IMG/VR virus record: IMGVR_UViG_3300020442_000011
Location: 48,001 to 112,000 of that record
Source of the DNA: a virus
Direction: 5' to 3' (one strand)
Length of the DNA stretch: 64,000 bases
The notes under the pieces were generated by a model. That model ran no database searches and was not told the DNA's origin. It worked only from the letters and a program-made list of their open reading frames with translations. This document shows positions 1,762-48,034 of this stretch, piece by piece. Each line of letters starts with the position of its first letter. Position 1 is the stretch's first letter. Position numbers and translations under genes: made by a program.

Positions 1762-2226
1762 ATGACCACTAAAGCAAAAGCAACCCCGTCAGCTAAACCC
1801 AAGACTACCAAGTCATTAACGGCTGATCAGAAACGTATCATCGCATTGGAAGCGCGCATCATCGCACTCGAAGATCGTCTCGATACTCAGAATAAAGAAA
1901 ATATCTCTTTGTTCGGTCAAATCCTCAGTGGTATCGGAATGACGCTGGGTCGTCAGGGTCAAGCGCTTCATGAAAAAGTCTTTCCGCCGACTTACAGTCT
2001 TTCTCTTGTAACAAAGGAGGAAGATGAGAACGAACAGACCGCAACATTGATCGTTGAGAACGACGGGTCGTTCTCGTTGCTTTCTCGAAATGCGGAAGGT
2101 AATCGTGTCCCCTTCCCTAAGCAAGAAGTTGATCTTTTCCCAGTTGCCGAGTTCATCAAGAAAAATAAACTCGTTGCTGGTAAAGTGTATTCTGTCAACA
2201 TTTTCCGAGAAGAAGGAACCAAGTAA
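1762..2226 (+). CDS. Hypothetical protein with basic tail and coiled coil, 154 aa
   Basis: The first 22 residues are Lys/Ala/Thr/Pro-rich and look disordered. Residues about 25-50 form a heptad-like coiled coil (ALEARIIALEDRLD). The rest looks like a beta-rich domain. The stop TAA overlaps the next start as TAATG at 2224-2228, so the two are translationally coupled. The basic tail plus coiled coil would suit an oligomeric nucleic-acid-binding or scaffold role, but that is a guess. Confidence 0.85.
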   Translation: MTTKAKATPSAKPKTTKSLTADQKRIIALEARIIALEDRLDTQNKENISLFGQILSGIGMTLGRQGQALHEKVFPPTYSLSLVTKEEDENEQTATLIVENDGSFSLLSRNAEGNRVPFPKQEVDLFPVAEFIKKNKLVAGKVYSVNIFREEGTK

Positions 2227-2801
2227 TGCCTGAACTCGAACCGACGGTAGGGAGTTGGCTCGAGGAGATCAATGACGAGGCTATCCGTCAGGAGCCTCGT
2301 ATCTCCGAATACCAATTCCAACGCGAAGTACTTACCCTACTCGAAAACCCGTTTGATGCTAATCACATTGATCGGTATAGTCGTTATGTAGGTGAGTTGA
2401 CAAAACCACTCAATGTCATGAGTAACGATAACCAAGGTGTTATCCTGTTTACGGTACCACCGCTTGTTTTCCCACCACGTCCAACGATTGCTGCAACCGG
2501 CGGTGTGACTGCTGAGAACTTGTTCTACCATCTTGAACGTTCCAAAGAGATCGGTGCGCGCGATATCAACGATCGGGTGACAGAATTCATGTTATCCATC
2601 ACTGGGTTCGGTAATCTCGTTAACGACGTTATCATGCCCATTCGCGAAATTCTTGCAAAATACGGTCGTAAGATGGTATCGATCCCTGGAATTGATACAC
2701 CACTACCCAACGGCGAACAAGTAAGCCCTACAGTGAGTGGTTCTACCGAAACCCCGGTTGCCAATAACCAGAGTAGTTTTACTGATGACTACGATGATTA
2801 G
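2226..2801 (+). CDS. Hypothetical protein with acidic C-terminal tip, 191 aa
   Basis: Start overlaps the preceding stop (TAATG). The folded part (about residues 1-160) has no recognised motif. The final 30 residues are Ser/Thr/Asn-rich and end SSFTDDYDD, an acidic aromatic tip like the partner-binding tails of SSB proteins. The gene overlaps the start of the SbcD-like nuclease, so it probably works with DNA metabolism genes. Role otherwise unknown. Confidence 0.85.
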   Translation: MPELEPTVGSWLEEINDEAIRQEPRISEYQFQREVLTLLENPFDANHIDRYSRYVGELTKPLNVMSNDNQGVILFTVPPLVFPPRPTIAATGGVTAENLFYHLERSKEIGARDINDRVTEFMLSITGFGNLVNDVIMPIREILAKYGRKMVSIPGIDTPLPNGEQVSPTVSGSTETPVANNQSSFTDDYDD

Positions 2802-3987
2802 TCCTGAAGTAAAAACAGACGGTCCACGGTCTAGCCTTTTTACAGAGGGTAAGATTGCGGGCCGTTTTCGTTTTGTGAGCGTGGGTGATATTCATCTTAA
2901 ACACCCACGCACTCCGACATCCCTCGTTCTTAACAATTTAACTAAGTATTGTGTTAACGATGCGGTGTTTAAAAACCTGGATATTTTTTTCATTACGGGC
3001 GATCTCTTCGACTCCTTGTTAATGAATAACGATCCACGTTTATATGAAATCCATCGATGGCTAACATATCTTCTTTACAAATGCGCTGAACACGATGTTC
3101 TTTTAAGGATCGTTGAGGGGACACCATCTCACGACCGAGAGCAATCAGTCTTCTTAACAGAACAAGCTGTTAACGCCAAGATCCCTGTTGATGTTCATTA
3201 CGCCACCACGTTGTCAATTGAATACGTGGAACGCTTTGGTATTCATATTCTTTATGTTCCAGACAAATGGCGAACAGAGACAACAGAAACATTAGGAGAA
3301 GTTAAACTCCTTTTAAAAGAAAAAGGTATCGATCAGGTTGACTTTGCTGTGATGCACGGCGCTTTCGAGTATCAACTTCCAGAAATCGTCCCTGAGCCAT
3401 CCCACGATAGTGAGGAATACCATCGCCTAGTAAAATGTTTTATTCTCATTGGACACGTTCATAAGGCATCTCAGAAGGGACGTATCTTAGCGGCGGGCAG
3501 TTTCGACCGTGACGGACATGGTAACGAAGAACCCAAAGGTTATTATGATGTCACTATATTCAGCAATGATGATTATCAGATAACATTTGTTGAGAATAAA
3601 GACGCTAAGAAATATGTAGGTGTTGATTGCGTCGGTCTTGATAGTCGTGAATCACTTATCAAGATTTCCAATCTAGTCTCTACACTGCCAAAAGGTAGTG
3701 CTGTAAAAATAAAGTGTTACGCAACAGATCCTATTTTTAAAGAATACAAGGATCTTCTTGAAGCATTCCCCTATATTGAATTTACCACCGACCGTCTTCG
3801 TGATACACGTGAAGAAGCCAAGGTCATGGAAGAACTCATGACGCTGGATTTCGATGTATTTAAAGACATCACACCTGAATCACTTCCAACGCTATTGATG
3901 GAAGAAGTCAACTCACTCACGTCGGACGAAAACCAACGTCGTCGATGTCTTGAGCTAATCGAGTCGGTGAACACATCAAACGCTTGA
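2794..3987 (+). CDS. SbcD/Mre11-like metallophosphoesterase
   Basis: A 397-residue calcineurin-type phosphoesterase. With the start at ATG 2794 the metal-binding motifs are GDIH (31-34), GDLFD (69-73), GTPSHD (109-114, in place of GNHD), MHGA (187-190) and GHVH (220-223), in family order. These ligate two metals for DNA exo/endonuclease activity in SbcD, Mre11 and T4 gp47. The usual GN of GNHD is altered to GTPSHD, but the histidine and aspartate remain. The frame is open from 2737, but the ATG inside the preceding stop region (8-base overlap) is the likely start. No SbcC/gp46 ATPase partner is present in the window. Likely role: processing phage or host DNA ends. Confidence 0.88.
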   Translation: MISPEVKTDGPRSSLFTEGKIAGRFRFVSVGDIHLKHPRTPTSLVLNNLTKYCVNDAVFKNLDIFFITGDLFDSLLMNNDPRLYEIHRWLTYLLYKCAEHDVLLRIVEGTPSHDREQSVFLTEQAVNAKIPVDVHYATTLSIEYVERFGIHILYVPDKWRTETTETLGEVKLLLKEKGIDQVDFAVMHGAFEYQLPEIVPEPSHDSEEYHRLVKCFILIGHVHKASQKGRILAAGSFDRDGHGNEEPKGYYDVTIFSNDDYQITFVENKDAKKYVGVDCVGLDSRESLIKISNLVSTLPKGSAVKIKCYATDPIFKEYKDLLEAFPYIEFTTDRLRDTREEAKVMEELMTLDFDVFKDITPESLPTLLMEEVNSLTSDENQRRRCLELIESVNTSNA

Positions 3988-3994
3988 GGTAGAC

Positions 3995-4831
3995 ATGACC
4001 GCTTACGTTCGTACATTGGGTGAGTATCCTATTTCAGTGGGTACGTCATTAGCTTTAGAAGGGTTCTTTAGAAAAGAACCTAATATTCGTCAGGAACGAA
4101 TCCGTACTGCTATCACCAAGTTGTGGGTAAACCTGGAAACAGTGGTTCGTAACGCAATTGAGGCGTATCCTTCTGATGACCTCAAGACACTGCCTTTAAA
4201 TGACGTTGTGGATTCAGTGTTTGAAGATGTGGAAGCCATTCAAACAACCATCCGCGACCAGTCGGAAGGTTCAGTAGCGTTGGTTCTGTTTTATGAAGAC
4301 CCTGAAGAACGTAAATGGTTATTCCCTCATGCCCAGTGGCGCGTCCCCACAACCGAACGTAAAAAACGTATTTCTCTTTTACATGACCTAGCAACACGTC
4401 AGGTATCGGGTATGATGCTTGAGAAGAAAATGCCGTTGAACATTATCAAACGGCGCCCACCTGTATCTCACGACCATGTAGCCATACTTACTCACCATAT
4501 CCATAATTTGTTCTGGGAACGATCCTTTGGTTATTTGGTCCTTCTAGAATCCTATACAGGTGCGTTAAAGGATGCCAACTTATGGTCAGGTAAAATGAAG
4601 GGCGTTGACGTTAGAGATCAGATGCCTTTTAATCCATTAACTCTTCAAATTTTAGGTGATGGTTCTTTATTCGCCGGTGAATCACGTGTCATTCAACGTG
4701 AGTTAAAAGTTCTTGCTAGAAACGCCAACTGGACGAAGGTTACTACAAGAGAACGCATATTGAATGACATTAGTCGTCAAGGTACGCCTGTTCTAAAAGA
4801 AGCGTACAACAAACTGATGAGTCGTCATTGA
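3995..4831 (+). CDS. Hypothetical protein, 278 aa
   Basis: Begins 7 bases after the nuclease gene, preceded by GAGG. Soluble and mixed alpha/beta, with several basic patches and a conserved-looking basic C-terminus (KLMSRH). No known motif was seen. Its position between the SbcD-like and SSB-like genes suggests a part in replication or recombination, by context only. Confidence 0.85.
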   Translation: MTAYVRTLGEYPISVGTSLALEGFFRKEPNIRQERIRTAITKLWVNLETVVRNAIEAYPSDDLKTLPLNDVVDSVFEDVEAIQTTIRDQSEGSVALVLFYEDPEERKWLFPHAQWRVPTTERKKRISLLHDLATRQVSGMMLEKKMPLNIIKRRPPVSHDHVAILTHHIHNLFWERSFGYLVLLESYTGALKDANLWSGKMKGVDVRDQMPFNPLTLQILGDGSLFAGESRVIQRELKVLARNANWTKVTTRERILNDISRQGTPVLKEAYNKLMSRH

Positions 4832-26902: not shown

Positions 26903-28702
26903 ATGACCGACAAACCTAAACTCGTTGGTATCGAAGCCAAACATATTACTTATGTCCCCGATCAGAACGGGGGTAATCATGATGCTTTGTTCATTAAAGA
27001 AGTTGGACATTTCAGTGATGGTAGTAAACGACCGCGTTTAAAACGGATTGATGATTATAAACGCCCCTACTACGTCACTATGCCAGGTAAGCAAGTTCAC
27101 AAGGATAAACGCGATTATGAACTTGCTTCCAACCTCCGTAAGTTTTCATCGACACAAGTTGAACTAGCACGTAACATAGCTCGTTCTCTCAATGATTGGT
27201 CTGGTGGTCCTAATCCACGACTAAGACAGCTTTCTAGAAGTCCATACTTGTATGGATCGGATGTTACACCCCCTACCTTAGTTAAAGCAGAATACCGCGA
27301 GAAATGGCCGGGTTTGTTTAGCTTTAACAAAGTGGCAGCTGGTGATACCGAGACTAACGTTTTTAGTGATGATCAAGAGATCATCCTTATGTCTGTCACC
27401 TATAAAAGTAAAGCGGCTCTTTTCTACTTAAAGAGTTTCGTGGATGGCGAAGAAAACGTTATTGAGCGCACGCATGAATTAGCCAAGCGTGAAATTGGCG
27501 ATGTTCTCAAGGAACGAAACATAGACCTTGAGGTCATGATCTGTGATACGCCAGGTACCATCGTCAAAGAAGCGTTATCACGACTCCATGCATGGAAACC
27601 CGATTTCTTCACTTTCTGGAACATGGACTTCGATATCACAAAAATGATGGAGGCTATGGAACGTGAAGGAATTGATCCGGCAGATTTATTCTCCGATCCT
27701 TCCGTACCGCCAAATTTCCGTTATTTTGAGTATAAGAAAGGTAACACGCAAAAAGTGACGGCCTCAGGCAAGACGATGTCTATTGCTATCGAGGATCGTT
27801 GGAACTGGGTGACGCACCCAGCGATGTGGCAAATGGTCGACAGTATGCCAATCTACCGCATCCTTCGTGTGGCTGATGGTAAAGATTCGTCCTATGCGTT
27901 GGATTATATTCTTGATAAAGAGGGCCTCGCTAAGAAGCTTAAGATCGTTGACCTTAAGAATGCCAGTGGATTACGCTGGCACGAAATCATGCAAGAGAAA
28001 TACAAAATCGAATACGGGGTGTACAACTTATTCGATAGTATCGCTCTTGAACTCTTAGACGAAAAGACGAATGATCTTGGATCAAACATCAGTCTTCATT
28101 CTAAGAACTCAGATTACAAGAATTTCAACTCTCAACCAAAACGTCTATGCGACGATATGCATTTCTGGCATTTACGCCAAGAGATTCCAGAGGTCATTGG
28201 TTCTTCTTCAGATCAGGCGGAAGATGAACTCGATAAGTTTGTTATCGGACATTCGGATTGGGTAGTTACATTACCGTCTTACATGGCATCACCCACCGGT
28301 ATCAAGTGCGTTAAGGATTACCCTGACTATTCTACCATGATCTTCGTCCACGTATCTGACTTAGACGTGGTATCGACGTATCCCAATGTTTCTCAGCTGC
28401 TCAATATTTCACGTAAAACGTGTGTATTTGAATTCTCACGGATGAAGGGAATAAGCGAACACCACCGTCGTGAAGTAGGGGTCAATCTAACGGGTGGACG
28501 TGTTAATGCTGTTGAGATAGGTCAGAAGATTTTAGGTATGCCAGAAATGGATGAACTAGTCAGTGAATTCTGCCAGGAAAACGGAATAGCAGCACCACTA
28601 GTGGATAGTCGTTACATTGTAGCTGCACCCCTCGAAATGAAACACCCCGAAGAAGAGTCAGTACCTGATCAAACGATGTTGGATGACGTCGTTACCCATT
28701 AG
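26903..28702 (+). CDS. Family B DNA polymerase, exonuclease domain and motif A only
   Basis: A 599-residue protein. The three 3'-5' exonuclease motifs are present: Exo I DTE (148-150), Exo II FWNMDFD (238-244) and Exo III YNLFD (374-378). Polymerase motif A follows as DVVSTYP (488-494), with D488 a metal ligand. Motif B (KxxxNxxYG) and motif C (DTD) were not found here or in the following frames. Either the palm continues on a separate gene outside the window or this protein is truncated. GGAAGAGGAG precedes ATG. After the TAG at 28700-28702 the same frame continues for 126 codons as a different conserved domain. Confidence 0.85.
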   Translation: MTDKPKLVGIEAKHITYVPDQNGGNHDALFIKEVGHFSDGSKRPRLKRIDDYKRPYYVTMPGKQVHKDKRDYELASNLRKFSSTQVELARNIARSLNDWSGGPNPRLRQLSRSPYLYGSDVTPPTLVKAEYREKWPGLFSFNKVAAGDTETNVFSDDQEIILMSVTYKSKAALFYLKSFVDGEENVIERTHELAKREIGDVLKERNIDLEVMICDTPGTIVKEALSRLHAWKPDFFTFWNMDFDITKMMEAMEREGIDPADLFSDPSVPPNFRYFEYKKGNTQKVTASGKTMSIAIEDRWNWVTHPAMWQMVDSMPIYRILRVADGKDSSYALDYILDKEGLAKKLKIVDLKNASGLRWHEIMQEKYKIEYGVYNLFDSIALELLDEKTNDLGSNISLHSKNSDYKNFNSQPKRLCDDMHFWHLRQEIPEVIGSSSDQAEDELDKFVIGHSDWVVTLPSYMASPTGIKCVKDYPDYSTMIFVHVSDLDVVSTYPNVSQLLNISRKTCVFEFSRMKGISEHHRREVGVNLTGGRVNAVEIGQKILGMPEMDELVSEFCQENGIAAPLVDSRYIVAAPLEMKHPEEESVPDQTMLDDVVTH

Positions 28703-29083
28703 CTGAAGTATCGTGAAGGAAAAGGTGGGTACGAGGTATCTACTAAAGGTGATCGTCGTTTCTCAGCCCTTGTAGCCCGTCTATCGGACGGGTATACCAT
28801 CGAAGAGCACTACCAGCTTCGTGTAAAGGGATACGGTACTTTAGGTATTGACCATTGGAAGAAGGGAAAAGGTAAACCGCCACGAATACGGTTTGATAAA
28901 GATGATCTTTACCGCGCTTATTTTGGATTATGGGAGCAATGGGCGCTCGAAAATCCAACACTCATTGAGGAGTTAAAACGCCATGCTGACCACCACAACA
29001 AAACCCTCAGCGACTGTTTCAGTCATGGACGCCCTGTCAATCAAGCAAGAGCATTATCTGAAATACTCGAACGTGGTATTTAA
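28703..29083 (+). pseudogene. Conserved phage domain lacking a normal start, in frame after polymerase TAG
   Basis: This 126-codon frame starts LKYREGKGGYEVSTKGD and continues RRFSALVARLSDG, TIEEHYQLRVKGYG and PVNQARALSEIL. I recognise this as a small protein that recurs in unrelated phages and normally begins with M just before KYxEGxGG; its function is not known to me. Here the position of the expected Met is CTG directly after the polymerase TAG, and no ATG, GTG or TTG exists in frame. Options are CTG initiation, TAG readthrough producing a fusion, or a gene inactivated by loss of its start after transfer. Composition and gap structure favour a recent insertion. Confidence 0.65.
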
Positions 29084-29348
29084 AGCACCACGTTCTGCCG
29101 GTAAATCTACATCTTCAGATTTACCTTTGTATTTAAATGCAGAATTCTTTAAGAAAAACACTCACTGGTTAATGCTAGAAGTTAATAATGAATTAAAGGA
29201 AGTTGAGCGTTCTGAAAATAGTTGCTTTATTAATCTCCGAATTCTATCGAGCATGAGAGTGTTGTTCTGGTTGGCATGCCTCATAGATAGGAACTGCTAC
29301 CTCAATCATAAAATCCAGTACGTTTCTTTTGGAGGTGGGGTAAAATGA
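28983..29348 (+). CDS. Small unknown open frame, start uncertain
   Basis: Open from ATG 28983, but the first 100 bases overlap the KYREGKGG frame, so the real start is probably internal (for example ATG 29025) or the gene is a remnant. It ends GGGVK with TGA at 29346-29348, overlapping the next ATG as ATGA, which argues for a coupled gene pair. No motif recognised; the central part is helical and charged. Confidence 0.4.
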   Translation: MLTTTTKPSATVSVMDALSIKQEHYLKYSNVVFKAPRSAGKSTSSDLPLYLNAEFFKKNTHWLMLEVNNELKEVERSENSCFINLRILSSMRVLFWLACLIDRNCYLNHKIQYVSFGGGVK

Positions 29349-29779
29349 AAGCATTGCAGTTTTATTTCGGTGACGGCAAAAATGATAACCCAGAAAGAGT
29401 GTCTACGGAGTGTTTTCCTTTGTCGATCGAGAGGGAGAATTATGTAAGATCCTTAACGGATTACTGGCTTTGGGGATTAACTATTGGCCCTGGTAAACGT
29501 TCCGAGTTATGTGGATACCCACGACAAGTTGAAGAACTAAGCAATGCTATTTTAACATCAACGACCCACAGACATTGGCGAAGTTTAGTTTTGGATATAC
29601 ACACGCCATACAGCCCATTGCTAACAGCTCTGATGTCAATAACCGCAAGTAGTTTATCAGTACTCACTGTATTGATACACGAAACATCAAGACTTCCGTT
29701 AACTCTTTTTCACCGACTCGAAATGAAAAATCGTTTATGGTATAATTATCTCCACAACGACCTGGAAAAAATTGATTAA
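29345..29779 (+). CDS. Hypothetical protein, 144 aa
   Basis: GGAGGTGGGG just before ATG is the strongest Shine-Dalgarno in this neighbourhood. The product begins MKALQFYFGDGKN, is helical with aromatic residues, and contains a serine/threonine-rich hydrophobic stretch (about residues 90-115) and a basic C-terminal helix. No family recognised. Base composition is more AT-rich than the surrounding genes, consistent with acquisition together with the 28703-29348 frames. Confidence 0.6.
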   Translation: MKALQFYFGDGKNDNPERVSTECFPLSIERENYVRSLTDYWLWGLTIGPGKRSELCGYPRQVEELSNAILTSTTHRHWRSLVLDIHTPYSPLLTALMSITASSLSVLTVLIHETSRLPLTLFHRLEMKNRLWYNYLHNDLEKID

Positions 29780-39332: not shown

Positions 39333-40838
39333 ATGAGTCTTCTCCAAGAATACCTCTCTAAGAACGCAAAACACGTTACTGGCCTTGAAGTCAGCTCTGA
39401 AGATTACATCGCCCCTGAAGACGTTGAGGTGCCGGAAGTTGCCGATGTAGATGATGCTGAACTCTACGAAGCTGAAGACCAGCTCGAAGAAGCGGAGCAG
39501 GAGCGTCTTGAACGCGAGTATCACGAGAAAGAGGTGGTTAGTACGATCCAAGAAGCCGAAGCAATCCACACTTCTATCGAGAACTATATGGAAGTGCTTG
39601 GCCTGGGTATTGAGTCAGGTGAGTTCTCTCCTCAGTTTGCTGCGATTGCCGGTACTGACCTGAAACGCTTCAACCAAATCCTGGGTGGTACTGAAGACGC
39701 GGTACCTGCTTTCGAAAGCTACGACCATGACTCGCTTGAGCAGTTCTATACGGAATCTCTGGAAGGGTTCAAGGAAGTGGCTGGTAAACTCGTAGAAACC
39801 GTTAAGTCTGTTTCTAAAGGTGCTGTCGATTACGTAGGTATGATCGGTACCAACGAAAAAGCAGCTTCTGCTATCAATACCAAAGCCGATGCACTTCTGG
39901 GTAAGCTGTCCAGTTCTGAAATCAGTGATGGTGAAATCGCACTGAAGAACCTGGGTCGTGTTTTCTCTGTTGAAGGTAAAGTGCCCCAGAATCTGATCCA
40001 AGCTGTTAATGCTGATCAGAAAGGTTTCCAAACACTAGCGTCGAATCACTTCAAGAACAGCGTAAGCTATTACGAGGACGCTGTCAAAGCTGGTAGTGAT
40101 GCGCTGAAGAAACCTGGTGAGGCTGGCGCTGTCATCGAAGCATTTGCCAAAAAACCAACTCCGAATGAACAGATTGCCAAATCGGTCAAGCTGTTGGGTT
40201 GTGAGGTAAGCACATTTGATTCAGGGGCTGATCTTCCCAAAAACACTAACCGTGCAGTTGCCGACGCTTTATCCGAGCGTCTTGGTGAACAGGTTATCAT
40301 GTTCGATGCTTACAAAAAAGCTGATGGGTCTGTGAAATTGGATAAGACCCAGGTGACCGCGCTGCTCAAAGCAGCTAAGGGTTACGCTGCAATCATGGCG
40401 ACGCTTAACAAAGAAGCGAAGAAAGAACTGGAGCGGCAAGTCAAGATTGATAAAGAGCTCCAGAAAGCGCTCAGTAACAACGCTCCCAGCAAAACCGGTT
40501 CCGTTACCGGTGCTTCCTTAGCTGGCGGTCTTGGTGGAGCTTGGGGTGGTGGACTTACATTTGGTCCAGTCGGTGCTGTAGTCGGAGGTGTTGGTGGTGC
40601 CACAGCAATGGGAAAAGCTGTGGCAGCCAGGAATGCGTCGATAAATAAAAATGCAGGAACTGACATGGAGCAAGCCATTCGTGAGATGGGGGCAGTTATC
40701 AAGAATGCTTCTGGTATTCCTCTCGCACATTTCAAAGAGATGGGTAAAGTCATCGAATTCCATGCAAAGTCTTGTATGGAACTGGCAGAACGTGCCATGA
40801 CCGCCAAGAAGAAAGAAGCCGAAACATCTGGCGAATGA
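39333..40838 (+). CDS. Inner-body (internal head) protein, 501 aa
   Basis: ATG 39333 follows AAGGAAAT. The leader (about 1-130) is extremely acidic (EDQLEEAEQERLERE), with VPAFESYDHDSLEQF providing A-F-E-S and S-L-E processing-like sites. The mature part is helical, with a Gly/Ala-rich segment near 400-430 (GLGGAWGGGLTFGPVGAVVGG) like a membrane-active or hinge segment. Followed by a strong terminator. Part of the phiKZ-type inner-body cluster. Confidence 0.8.
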   Translation: MSLLQEYLSKNAKHVTGLEVSSEDYIAPEDVEVPEVADVDDAELYEAEDQLEEAEQERLEREYHEKEVVSTIQEAEAIHTSIENYMEVLGLGIESGEFSPQFAAIAGTDLKRFNQILGGTEDAVPAFESYDHDSLEQFYTESLEGFKEVAGKLVETVKSVSKGAVDYVGMIGTNEKAASAINTKADALLGKLSSSEISDGEIALKNLGRVFSVEGKVPQNLIQAVNADQKGFQTLASNHFKNSVSYYEDAVKAGSDALKKPGEAGAVIEAFAKKPTPNEQIAKSVKLLGCEVSTFDSGADLPKNTNRAVADALSERLGEQVIMFDAYKKADGSVKLDKTQVTALLKAAKGYAAIMATLNKEAKKELERQVKIDKELQKALSNNAPSKTGSVTGASLAGGLGGAWGGGLTFGPVGAVVGGVGGATAMGKAVAARNASINKNAGTDMEQAIREMGAVIKNASGIPLAHFKEMGKVIEFHAKSCMELAERAMTAKKKEAETSGE

Positions 40839-40858
40839 TCGTTAGTTGTTAGCATCAT

Positions 40859-40886
40859 AAGAGCACCCCGTTAGGGGTGCTCTTTT
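40859..40886 (+). terminator. Rho-independent terminator
   Basis: AAGAGCACCCC / GGGGTGCTCTT around GTTA, followed by TT. It ends the inner-body cluster. Confidence 0.9.
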
Positions 40887-40946
40887 ATGTCTTAGTTGTA
40901 CGGATGTGACGGATTTTATGAACCGTTTTAACACGAGAGGCTTTCC

Positions 40947-42728
40947 ATGCCACAGGCACTCATAGCACTACCGGATGTTTACGATTCTGTTATCCGTCGT
41001 ATCGCCGTTGATAGTGTTTCACAATTAGCACGTGTCATGCGTTTACCGCCTGACACCCAAATCATGTTACCAGGTAATGCCCAGACTGTTCCCATGAATA
41101 ACGGGTCATTTGGGGAATGTGGTGATCCCGGACTTAATTACCCGACTGATGGGCGTTTGGTAATTTCATTCACAGAAGAGTTAGATGATAGTCAAACACT
41201 ATCTCAACATGCGGGGACTGCTGAAAACTTACCGCTATTTGAAGACGTTGTTCGCTCTACGGTTATTTTCCCCGTGTATCGTTCAGTAACAATGAACCTG
41301 AATCTCCAGTACATTGCCCCTAACCAGAATATTGCTCAGCGTTGGTTAGATGAAATGCGAACACGTGTGGTTCAATTACGCGCAGAACTTTACCAGACGC
41401 TTGAATACCACTATGCTATACCTAACCCCATCCTGATGTTGCTTCATGAAGTGTGGAGTAAAATAGAAGCGTCTGACCACCCTTCTAATCTATCCTTCTC
41501 TGAATATCTTGATGAATATCTATCAAGACCAACAACCGTGATCGATACATTAGCAGATACGGCACCTACACGCGCTGTGATTGAGAAACAATACGAGGTG
41601 TTAGGGTGGTTCGATTTTACGAGTACTCCTGAACAACCAGAGAAGGACGGGGCTAATGCAGGGAATTACATTTGCAATATAAACTATCGTTTTTCTTACG
41701 ACCGACCCATGCAGATGTTAGTACGTTGGCCCCTTGTGGTACATAACCAAATTATCGATTCAACGTATCATCCGACAGAACCTTACCAAACGTTCCGTCA
41801 AGTCGATCGCCGAGTATCTTTTTTCAAAGGATCACTTGAAAGTTTTTTGGAAAGCATTAAGTATAACAACATCCCCTACGTCATCGAACCCGAGATCGAT
41901 GATTGGATGCCATCTGAGATGAACCGTAGAGCGATGATCTTTTTTACAGGGCTCTTGGTAATCGATAAAACAGATCCTACCCATCTTGTCGATCTGAGTC
42001 ATCTAGGGAAACACACCTTCACCCCATACATCCTCGAATATTTCTTTCAACAGCAACACACGTTATTTGGTGATAGAACATCCCCGTTCGTGTTCATGCT
42101 ATTCGAAAATGGGCAGCAACGTACTGACATTACGTTCTCTTTTAAACCGAACAGTTTAGAGTTGGTTGTTGATAAACCTCTAGACATGACGAAGATGTAT
42201 CATTTACAGATCGGTATTCTTCGTGACTGGACGGCACTCACCACAGAAACCCGCCAATGTCTCCGTCGTTATCCAGTGGTGACTTATTCCTTATTCCGTG
42301 TTCTCAACATTGTTTTAGGTGAGAAAGAGTTTAAGGACTTAATGTTGCTGGGGACACCACATAAGCGGATCGCTATATCTAATTGTCCAGGTCAAGGTTC
42401 TTTAATAGGGCCGCCCGACAAAGGAGGTACATGGCCGTGGCCCTGGTTAGATCCAGAATGGGGTAATTACCCCTGGCCGGGTTATGATCCAAGGTTCGAT
42501 AAGTACAACTGGCCAGGTGGTTCATTAGACCATCCAGTAATTGATTTACCTACATGGCCAGGTGCCGATGGAGAGCATGGGGATAATAGTGGTGTCATCC
42601 GCAATGATGATATCGAAGACGCTATCGACCATACGGACGGCTATGCGGGTAAGGATGTGATCTACTCCATCACCACATTACACACTGTCATGTTTGCACA
42701 AGTTTTTGTTTATGGGGGATATAAGTAA
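40947..42728 (+). CDS. Virion structural protein with Trp-Pro-rich repeats, 593 aa
   Basis: GAGAGG lies upstream. The folded part (about 1-485) is beta-rich and resembles tail or baseplate proteins. Residues about 493-540 form a striking low-complexity region with repeated WPWP, PWPGYDPRFDKYNWPGG and TWPGADG units, rich in Trp, Pro, Gly and Asp. The stop overlaps the next start (TAATG). Probably a tail or virion surface protein; the repeat could be an extended linker or binding segment. Confidence 0.75.
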   Translation: MPQALIALPDVYDSVIRRIAVDSVSQLARVMRLPPDTQIMLPGNAQTVPMNNGSFGECGDPGLNYPTDGRLVISFTEELDDSQTLSQHAGTAENLPLFEDVVRSTVIFPVYRSVTMNLNLQYIAPNQNIAQRWLDEMRTRVVQLRAELYQTLEYHYAIPNPILMLLHEVWSKIEASDHPSNLSFSEYLDEYLSRPTTVIDTLADTAPTRAVIEKQYEVLGWFDFTSTPEQPEKDGANAGNYICNINYRFSYDRPMQMLVRWPLVVHNQIIDSTYHPTEPYQTFRQVDRRVSFFKGSLESFLESIKYNNIPYVIEPEIDDWMPSEMNRRAMIFFTGLLVIDKTDPTHLVDLSHLGKHTFTPYILEYFFQQQHTLFGDRTSPFVFMLFENGQQRTDITFSFKPNSLELVVDKPLDMTKMYHLQIGILRDWTALTTETRQCLRRYPVVTYSLFRVLNIVLGEKEFKDLMLLGTPHKRIAISNCPGQGSLIGPPDKGGTWPWPWLDPEWGNYPWPGYDPRFDKYNWPGGSLDHPVIDLPTWPGADGEHGDNSGVIRNDDIEDAIDHTDGYAGKDVIYSITTLHTVMFAQVFVYGGYK

Positions 42729-47602: not shown

Positions 47603-48034
47603 ATGCGTTATTTTAAGTTTACCCATGATGCTCATGAGCTTAACAGTAGCATCCTATTTTCGTTGATGATCCAGGGTCAGCCAAATGGCCTTAACGATCT
47701 CAATGAACCATATCACCTCCAGCTGAACAATACGGTGTACACCATCATCCCGATGGATAATCCGATGTCTAAACGACATTCCTTCACGCAGTTCGGTCCC
47801 TATGTTGATGCCCACTATCATGATGGTAGTTTGATCGATCAAGAGGACATCAATAACGATGTCCTGGCCGCATTAACATTGCTGACAGGGAGGTGCAACT
47901 GGGTGGTGAATGGTGAGTTATGGAAACTACGCAGTCGCCGAGATGAATTCTTCAATGTGATGAGCGAAGTGAATACCGTGTTGACTTTCATTTCAGCTGT
48001 ACTTCTCATTACGTATCTCAAAACACGTAAATAA
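47603..48034 (+). CDS. Tail-anchored early membrane protein, 143 aa (paralogue 2)
   Basis: Starts 3 bases after paralogue 1. Same design: soluble domain, then C-terminal membrane segment (VLTFISAVLLITYL) and a short basic tail KTRK. Sequence identity with paralogue 1 is limited to several blocks, so the duplication is old or the pair diverged fast. It ends at a hairpin. Confidence 0.8.
   Translation: MRYFKFTHDAHELNSSILFSLMIQGQPNGLNDLNEPYHLQLNNTVYTIIPMDNPMSKRHSFTQFGPYVDAHYHDGSLIDQEDINNDVLAALTLLTGRCNWVVNGELWKLRSRRDEFFNVMSEVNTVLTFISAVLLITYLKTRK

Follow-up and report, generated by a model that had tools for sequence, protein, structure and literature searches.

How a conserved domain that begins directly behind the stop codon of a DNA polymerase gene is translated is the question raised by a locus in the IMG/VR virus record IMGVR_UViG_3300020442_000011. 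We analysed positions 48,001 to 112,000 of this record, a stretch of 64,000 nucleotides referred to here as the window. An open reading frame (ORF) at positions 26903–28702 of the plus strand, which encodes 599 amino acids (aa) from an ATG start, closes with TAG at 28700–28702. The frame after the TAG stays open, beginning with CTG AAG TAT CGT GAA GGA and running for 126 codons (28703–29080) to a TAA at 29081–29083, and no ATG, GTG, or TTG was observed between the TAG and the conserved core of this downstream frame. Its product matched phrog_9995, a family without assigned function, over residues 5–125 of 126 with an E value of 6e-39. The first-pass annotation, made from the sequence alone, had claimed that the polymerase frame continues past the TAG into a conserved domain without a start, and both the ORF reading and the phrog_9995 match bore this out. 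Because the position as well as the sequence of the domain is conserved, chance was excluded as its origin. From the missing start codons, the conserved slippery heptamers of relatives, the conservation of the domain, and its homology to the NADAR family, all of which are properties of the sequences, we infer that conserved recoding yields two products, the polymerase half alone and the polymerase half with a tethered NADAR domain; the readthrough proposed for the window and the function proposed for the fusion belong to the same inference. We assign this reading a probability of about 0.72.

The upstream ORF matched phrog_3011, described as DNA polymerase, with an E value of 8e-216 over positions 5–570 of the 576-position profile. 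Since the profile was matched nearly end to end, the ORF is complete and the TAG does not truncate the polymerase half. The predicted model of its product resembles RB69 gp43 (Foldseek E value of 7e-12), and its relatives include PHIKZ082 of phage phiKZ. The gene for the C-terminal half (C-half) lies outside the window, at positions 39840–42035 of the record, and matched PF20286, "Divergent Family B DNA polymerase", with an E value of 7e-266. Both halves are therefore encoded separately in one 112-kb record, as expected for the split polymerase of phiKZ-like phages. The first-pass annotation had described the ORF as a family B polymerase; the polymerase was confirmed, whereas the ORF proved to be only the N-terminal (exonuclease) half (N-half) of a split divergent family B enzyme. 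Iyer and colleagues reported that the polymerases of group 1 jumbo phages lack a fused exonuclease and that such a protein is encoded elsewhere (PMC7824862). Pfam gave no usable match for the domain or the N-half, a DNA similarity search against phages gave zero matches for the window, and scanning viral contigs with a single protein gave no result.

When phage records were searched by tblastn, the domain was detected in 98 records, 69 of which were Pseudomonas phages. IMG/VR contained many further copies, including those of metagenomic jumbo phages in which the domain follows the same polymerase gene. The orthologous polymerase gene is immediately followed by the domain in phiKZ, PhiPA3, 201phi2-1, Noxifer, Psa21, Phabio, PS119XW, RVTF4, D6, and Viktualia. 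In phiKZ the two genes have orthologues, PHIKZ082 and PHIKZ082.1, arranged as in the window, but these are joined at C_CCA_AAG_TAA, the domain being in the -1 frame, whereas the window has an in-frame TAG. The phiKZ annotation (PHIKZ082.1 / PHIKZ_p28, L002:4235-4351) takes in no more than the final 38 codons of the domain, and in other phage annotations the domain gene is split into pieces or omitted.

Nineteen distinct loci have the domain in -1 relative to the polymerase, and nine have it in +1, which equals -2; in the window and in L020/L021, whose sequences are mutually identical, it is in frame 0. All 19 distinct -1 loci carry a zero-frame heptamer of the form X_XXA_AAG (X = A, C, or G) within the overlap of the two frames: C_CCA_AAG in 12 (two being close phiKZ variants), A_AAA_AAG in 6, and G_GGA_AAG in 1. 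The rule is kept in L058, in which CCC is changed to GGG. The polymerase stop follows directly after the heptamer or one codon on in the 13 loci with a C or G heptamer, and the two frames overlap by just 2–6 codons in 11 of these 13. As background, the 53,288 codons of other ORFs at these loci contained AAAAAAG and CCCAAAG 0 times each, GGGAAAG once, and TTTAAAG eight times. Furthermore, the domain was absent after the gene in 46 of 63 related N-half loci with a readable 3' end, and X_XXA_AAG was found in the last ten codons of none of those 46 polymerase genes; two AT-rich domain-less N-half genes carry A_AAA_AAA. According to PMC5009743, the heptamers A_AAA_AAG, C_CCA_AAG, and G_GGA_AAG are highly prone to shifting in E. 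coli. The slippery heptamer characteristic of -1 programmed frameshifting is therefore present in the relatives, and the window itself has no slippery heptamer and holds the domain in frame 0.

GAA_AAG_AAG was common to all nine +1/-2 loci, and the right frame would result if tRNA-Lys slipped by -2, from AAG to AAA, at this site. We judged +1 slippage unlikely in this clade, since no zero-frame tRNA would be expected to re-pair well one base downstream, with the exception of CCC to CCG in L069. Hairpins with low z-scores occur downstream of the junctions in several loci, and a strong conserved hairpin was observed about 25–90 nt downstream of GAA_AAG_AAG in L005, L009, L013, L069, L075, L077, L079, and L085.

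The domain was also found beside the other half of the polymerase. In L056:803-3345 and L072:809-3351 it follows the C-half of the family B polymerase (PolB; 722 aa; PF20286 E value of 7e-192 for L056) across the junction GAA AAA AAG TAA; there the domain occupies the -1 frame and lacks a start codon. In L089:2986-5560, a single ORF from an ATG encodes an N-terminal NADAR domain and the PolB C-half, which constitutes a natural gene fusion. Judged by gene arrangement, the C-half linkage is a second, independent case, and the domain meets the polymerase by several genetic ways.

A competing explanation is that the domain is a separate protein, made by terminating ribosomes that reinitiate at a non-AUG codon just past the stop. 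Stop-start coupling is common in phages, and in the window the CTG at 28703–28705, which would be a leucine of the fusion or the start codon of the separate protein, adjoins the TAG. ATG overlaps the polymerase stop in PhiPA3 and L110 (TAATG), where separate initiation is possible; GTG overlaps TGA in PS119XW, and GTG or TTG lies nearby in several others. However, 15 of the 29 distinct polymerase-linked domains have neither ATG nor GTG nor TTG as an in-frame codon up to 30 codons from the core, and ATG is present in 4. A Shine-Dalgarno-like sequence was found at the candidate start of none of the 29, and none was observed in the 20 nt upstream of the CTG at 28703. Among unlinked copies near an ORF start, ATG was present in 46 of 53 and ATG, GTG, or TTG in 52 of 53; the contrast with the linked copies gave a Fisher p of 6e-11, although the relatives are not independent. 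The first-pass annotation had assumed that the usual methionine of the domain is replaced by CTG in the window, which did not hold, as the aligned residue in the linked relatives is I, M, T, V, or L. This variation fits an internal residue. The equivalent codons include ATA, ACA, GTA, GTT, and ACG, with CTA in L020; initiation at CTG is the main rival for the window genome but fails for the relatives. Reinitiation would also leave unexplained the heptamers in 19 of 19 -1 loci and their recurrence with the C-half gene. We regard a separate start as rather unlikely. We likewise dropped a conserved coupling of the two translations through a non-AUG start, given ACA, ATA, GTA, and GTT in the relatives and the heptamers.

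Alternatively, the window's domain may be a decaying remnant that a mutation placed behind a stop codon. This would be consistent with the window's position on a long branch of the polymerase tree and with its nearest relatives, L112, L019, and L023, which use -1 sites, the window having lost the heptamer. Nevertheless, the 126-codon frame contains neither a stop nor a frameshift and keeps the invariant positions of the family, and the TAG-CTN arrangement is shared with L020. Moreover, the ratio of nonsynonymous to synonymous substitution rates (dN/dS) ranged from 0.04 to 0.17 across five pairs of relatives with the polymerase-linked domain; two of these pairs have no start codon at all (0.05 for the phiKZ variants and 0.17 for L022/L091). 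This strong purifying selection indicates that the domain frame is selected as a protein and, together with the conserved frame, makes decay highly improbable. It is harder still to credit that a reassigned code or a suppressor tRNA makes TAG a sense codon in the whole phage. One in-frame TAG with a conserved continuation speaks for it, but among the 93 ORFs with 120 codons or more, 20 end in TAG, and neither the window nor the remaining 48 kb of the record (112 kb in total) yielded a tRNA gene; as the record is incomplete, a tRNA may lie elsewhere. Neither a suppressor tRNA nor avoidance of TAG as a stop, the marks of a TAG-recoded genome, was seen, and these results agree with the first-pass view that no suppressor tRNA or wider TAG recoding is visible here. 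That annotation had left three options for the domain, namely a readthrough fusion, a start at CTG, and a dead gene. The fusion is favoured since every polymerase-linked relative joins both frames at a plausible recoding site; the CTG start may apply to the window alone, and a dead domain is unlikely.

Readthrough in the window genome is suggested by homology. A conserved in-frame extension without a start of its own, as expected for readthrough, is present in the window and, in parallel, in L020, whose polymerase is 60% identical to that of the window. The L020 junction, GAT TAG CTA ACC TTT, contains no initiation codon, so that readthrough is the only simple route to its domain. In the polymerase tree, the window falls inside the A_AAA_AAG group with L020, L112, L019, and L023.

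The NADAR identity of the domain was first suspected from its motif, ahead of the fold search. The AlphaFold2 model of the domain had a predicted local distance difference test score (pLDDT) of 96. When VIA-align 2 was applied to the Foldseek candidates, 8bau, a Phytophthora NADAR with ADP-ribose, ranked top with a Z of 7.5 over 112 of 126 residues (rmsd 3.0), and the runner-up scored 2.3; a Z below 8 is moderate. The window protein itself matched neither PF22397 nor PF08719. However, the bacterial homologues L159, L160, L161, L162, and L164 scored 27.2–42.5 against PF22397 (NADAR-DarT1; cut-off 27), and L160 matched phrog_9995 at 1.9e-22, which provides a link to NADAR independent of the fold. 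In L160:2980-3891, from Bacillus sp. M6-12, the NADAR-DarT1-like domain is fused to a Macro domain. Three residues, E34 (28802–28804), K42 (28826–28828), and D104 (29012–29014), were invariant across 53 sequences (alignment A9). In the model they lie in or beside the elements expected of NADARs, which carry E and K on a single helix and D, E, or H on the last strand, D104 ending that strand (101–104). Catalysis by the NADAR of E. coli C7 involves E88, K95, and D171 (PMC11543638), and the catalytic residue of the last strand is D in the DarT1-type family (PMC11125620); by motif and fold, E34, K42, and D104 are the provisional counterparts of these three. Taken together, the predicted fold, the invariant candidate residues, and the bacterial homologues above the PF22397 cut-off indicate that the predicted domain is a divergent NADAR. 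The fold, the sequence link through the bacterial homologues and, provisionally, the E/K/D set are shared with NADAR and DarT1-associated NADAR antitoxins (PF22397 and PF08719), a family that counteracts DarT1 toxins and acts by hydrolysis of guanine-ADP-ribose. The present domain differs from them in that it is short (about 120 aa) and divergent, has an E-to-K spacing one longer, and is joined to a polymerase, whereas they are standalone or accompany DarT1.

We propose that, in this giant phage and in phiKZ-like relatives, part of the ribosomes translating the exonuclease half would continue past its end into the NADAR domain. Among the phiKZ-like phages the two frames would be joined through -1 programmed frameshifting at A_AAA_AAG, C_CCA_AAG, or G_GGA_AAG; one clade would instead use a -2 (or +1) shift close to GAA_AAG_AAG, and the window and L020 would rely on readthrough of the TAG in TAG-CTN. 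The resulting products would be the polymerase half alone and the same half carrying a C-terminal NADAR on a flexible linker. In an AlphaFold2 model of the fusion, pLDDT was mostly above 80 in the exonuclease region, about 90–97 in the NADAR, and below 50 over most of residues 397–615. The final part of this stretch, at 28589–28699 (residues 565–608, together with 611–615, being below 50), has low confidence, fits a flexible tether, and is probably the linker. The NADARs tested in one study, including one from a phage, hydrolyse guanosine-ADP-ribose (PMC11125620), and DarT1 modifies guanine in single-stranded DNA (PMC11543638); a NADAR borne on the polymerase would meet such modified bases at the fork. 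The likeliest function would be to remove ADP-ribose there from template guanines, a counter to DarT1-type defence carried by the replisome, and the linkage to either polymerase half supports, as a hypothesis, action at the replisome. We tentatively suggest that a minority of the polymerase, set by recoding, carries this ADP-ribose remover and lets the fork pass DarT1-modified DNA, the fusion being kept while the recoding route and the polymerase half change; the odds are somewhat against this fuller account.

Several observations weigh against a recoded polymerase-NADAR fusion, in addition to the overlapping ATG of PhiPA3 and L110. Only two distinct members, the window and L020, make up the readthrough group, and a further scan for relatives with the in-frame TAG returned the L020 contigs again and nothing else. 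They do not form a sister pair in the polymerase tree, which may reflect two separate origins of the in-frame TAG state or an intervening loss. In both, C follows the TAG, and TAG-CT also ends ordinary genes of the record. The conserved downstream hairpins of the one clade show only one covarying pair, too little to prove a stimulator. As for the domain, Foldseek alone returned no NADAR and no good fold match against the PDB, and aligning profiles with those of four YbiA-type NADARs gave a weak signal. The E-to-K spacing, 7 in characterised NADARs, is 8 in the present domain, a difference that makes the assignment of the catalytic residues provisional. Finally, our literature search found no proteomic or ribosome-profiling evidence for the fusion and no relevant ribosome profiling of phiKZ. 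Nor did it uncover a published polymerase-NADAR fusion or a phiKZ-type polymerase described as frameshifted, most subscription papers lying outside the search.

Other features of the locus are as follows. The polymerase half contains, all on the plus strand, a D-T-E motif at 27344–27352, which we take to be Exo I-like from its resemblance to family B polymerases in general, an Exo II-like motif W-N-M-D-F-D at 27617–27634, an Exo III-like motif Y-N-L-F-D at 28022–28036, and a palm motif A-like D-V-V-S-T-Y-P-N at 28364–28387; palm motifs B and C sit in the separate C-half gene. Just downstream, ORFs at 28983–29348 and 29345–29779 gave no confident family match, and the former begins within the 3' end of the domain in another frame and may be spurious. 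Among related loci, an intron-like insertion breaks the PolB N-half at motif A in L020:2200-2660 and in L006 (PhiPA3) 3866-4133, and in L017 (HPP-Temi) 2030-3630 two pieces of the polymerase are separated by an HNH endonuclease gene. The domain also occurs within giant ORFs of about 1900–2100 aa or more on other phage contigs, namely L033, L037, L038, L051, L053, L055, L057, L073, L078, L080, and L095.

Precedents exist for each element: replication proteins made by recoding, phage NADARs, and frameshifts that vary yet lead to one fused product. In bacterial DNA polymerase III, -1 frameshifting of dnaX (tau/gamma) at A_AAA_AAG gives, as proposed here, a replisome subunit in two C-terminal forms; however, the frameshift in E. 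coli yields the short product, whereas here the shift would add an enzyme domain to half of a phage family B polymerase. In the phage tail chaperone G/GT, one fusion is conserved although the shift is -1, -2, or +1 depending on the phage, the -2 shift occurring in Mu, as described in an excerpt of PMC5009743. That system serves tail assembly, in contrast to DNA replication here, and the excerpt mentions no variant by stop-codon readthrough. The present junctions form a natural series in which one fusion would be preserved through different recoding routes. If this reading is correct, the DNA polymerase of widely studied phages such as phiKZ, PhiPA3, and 201phi2-1 would be one of the few replication proteins for which recoding supplies two forms, and it would involve a gene that annotators missed or shortened because it lacks a start codon. 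It would also tie the replisome directly to the reversal of DNA ADP-ribosylation, a defence chemistry, in a way that can be tested in a laboratory phage.
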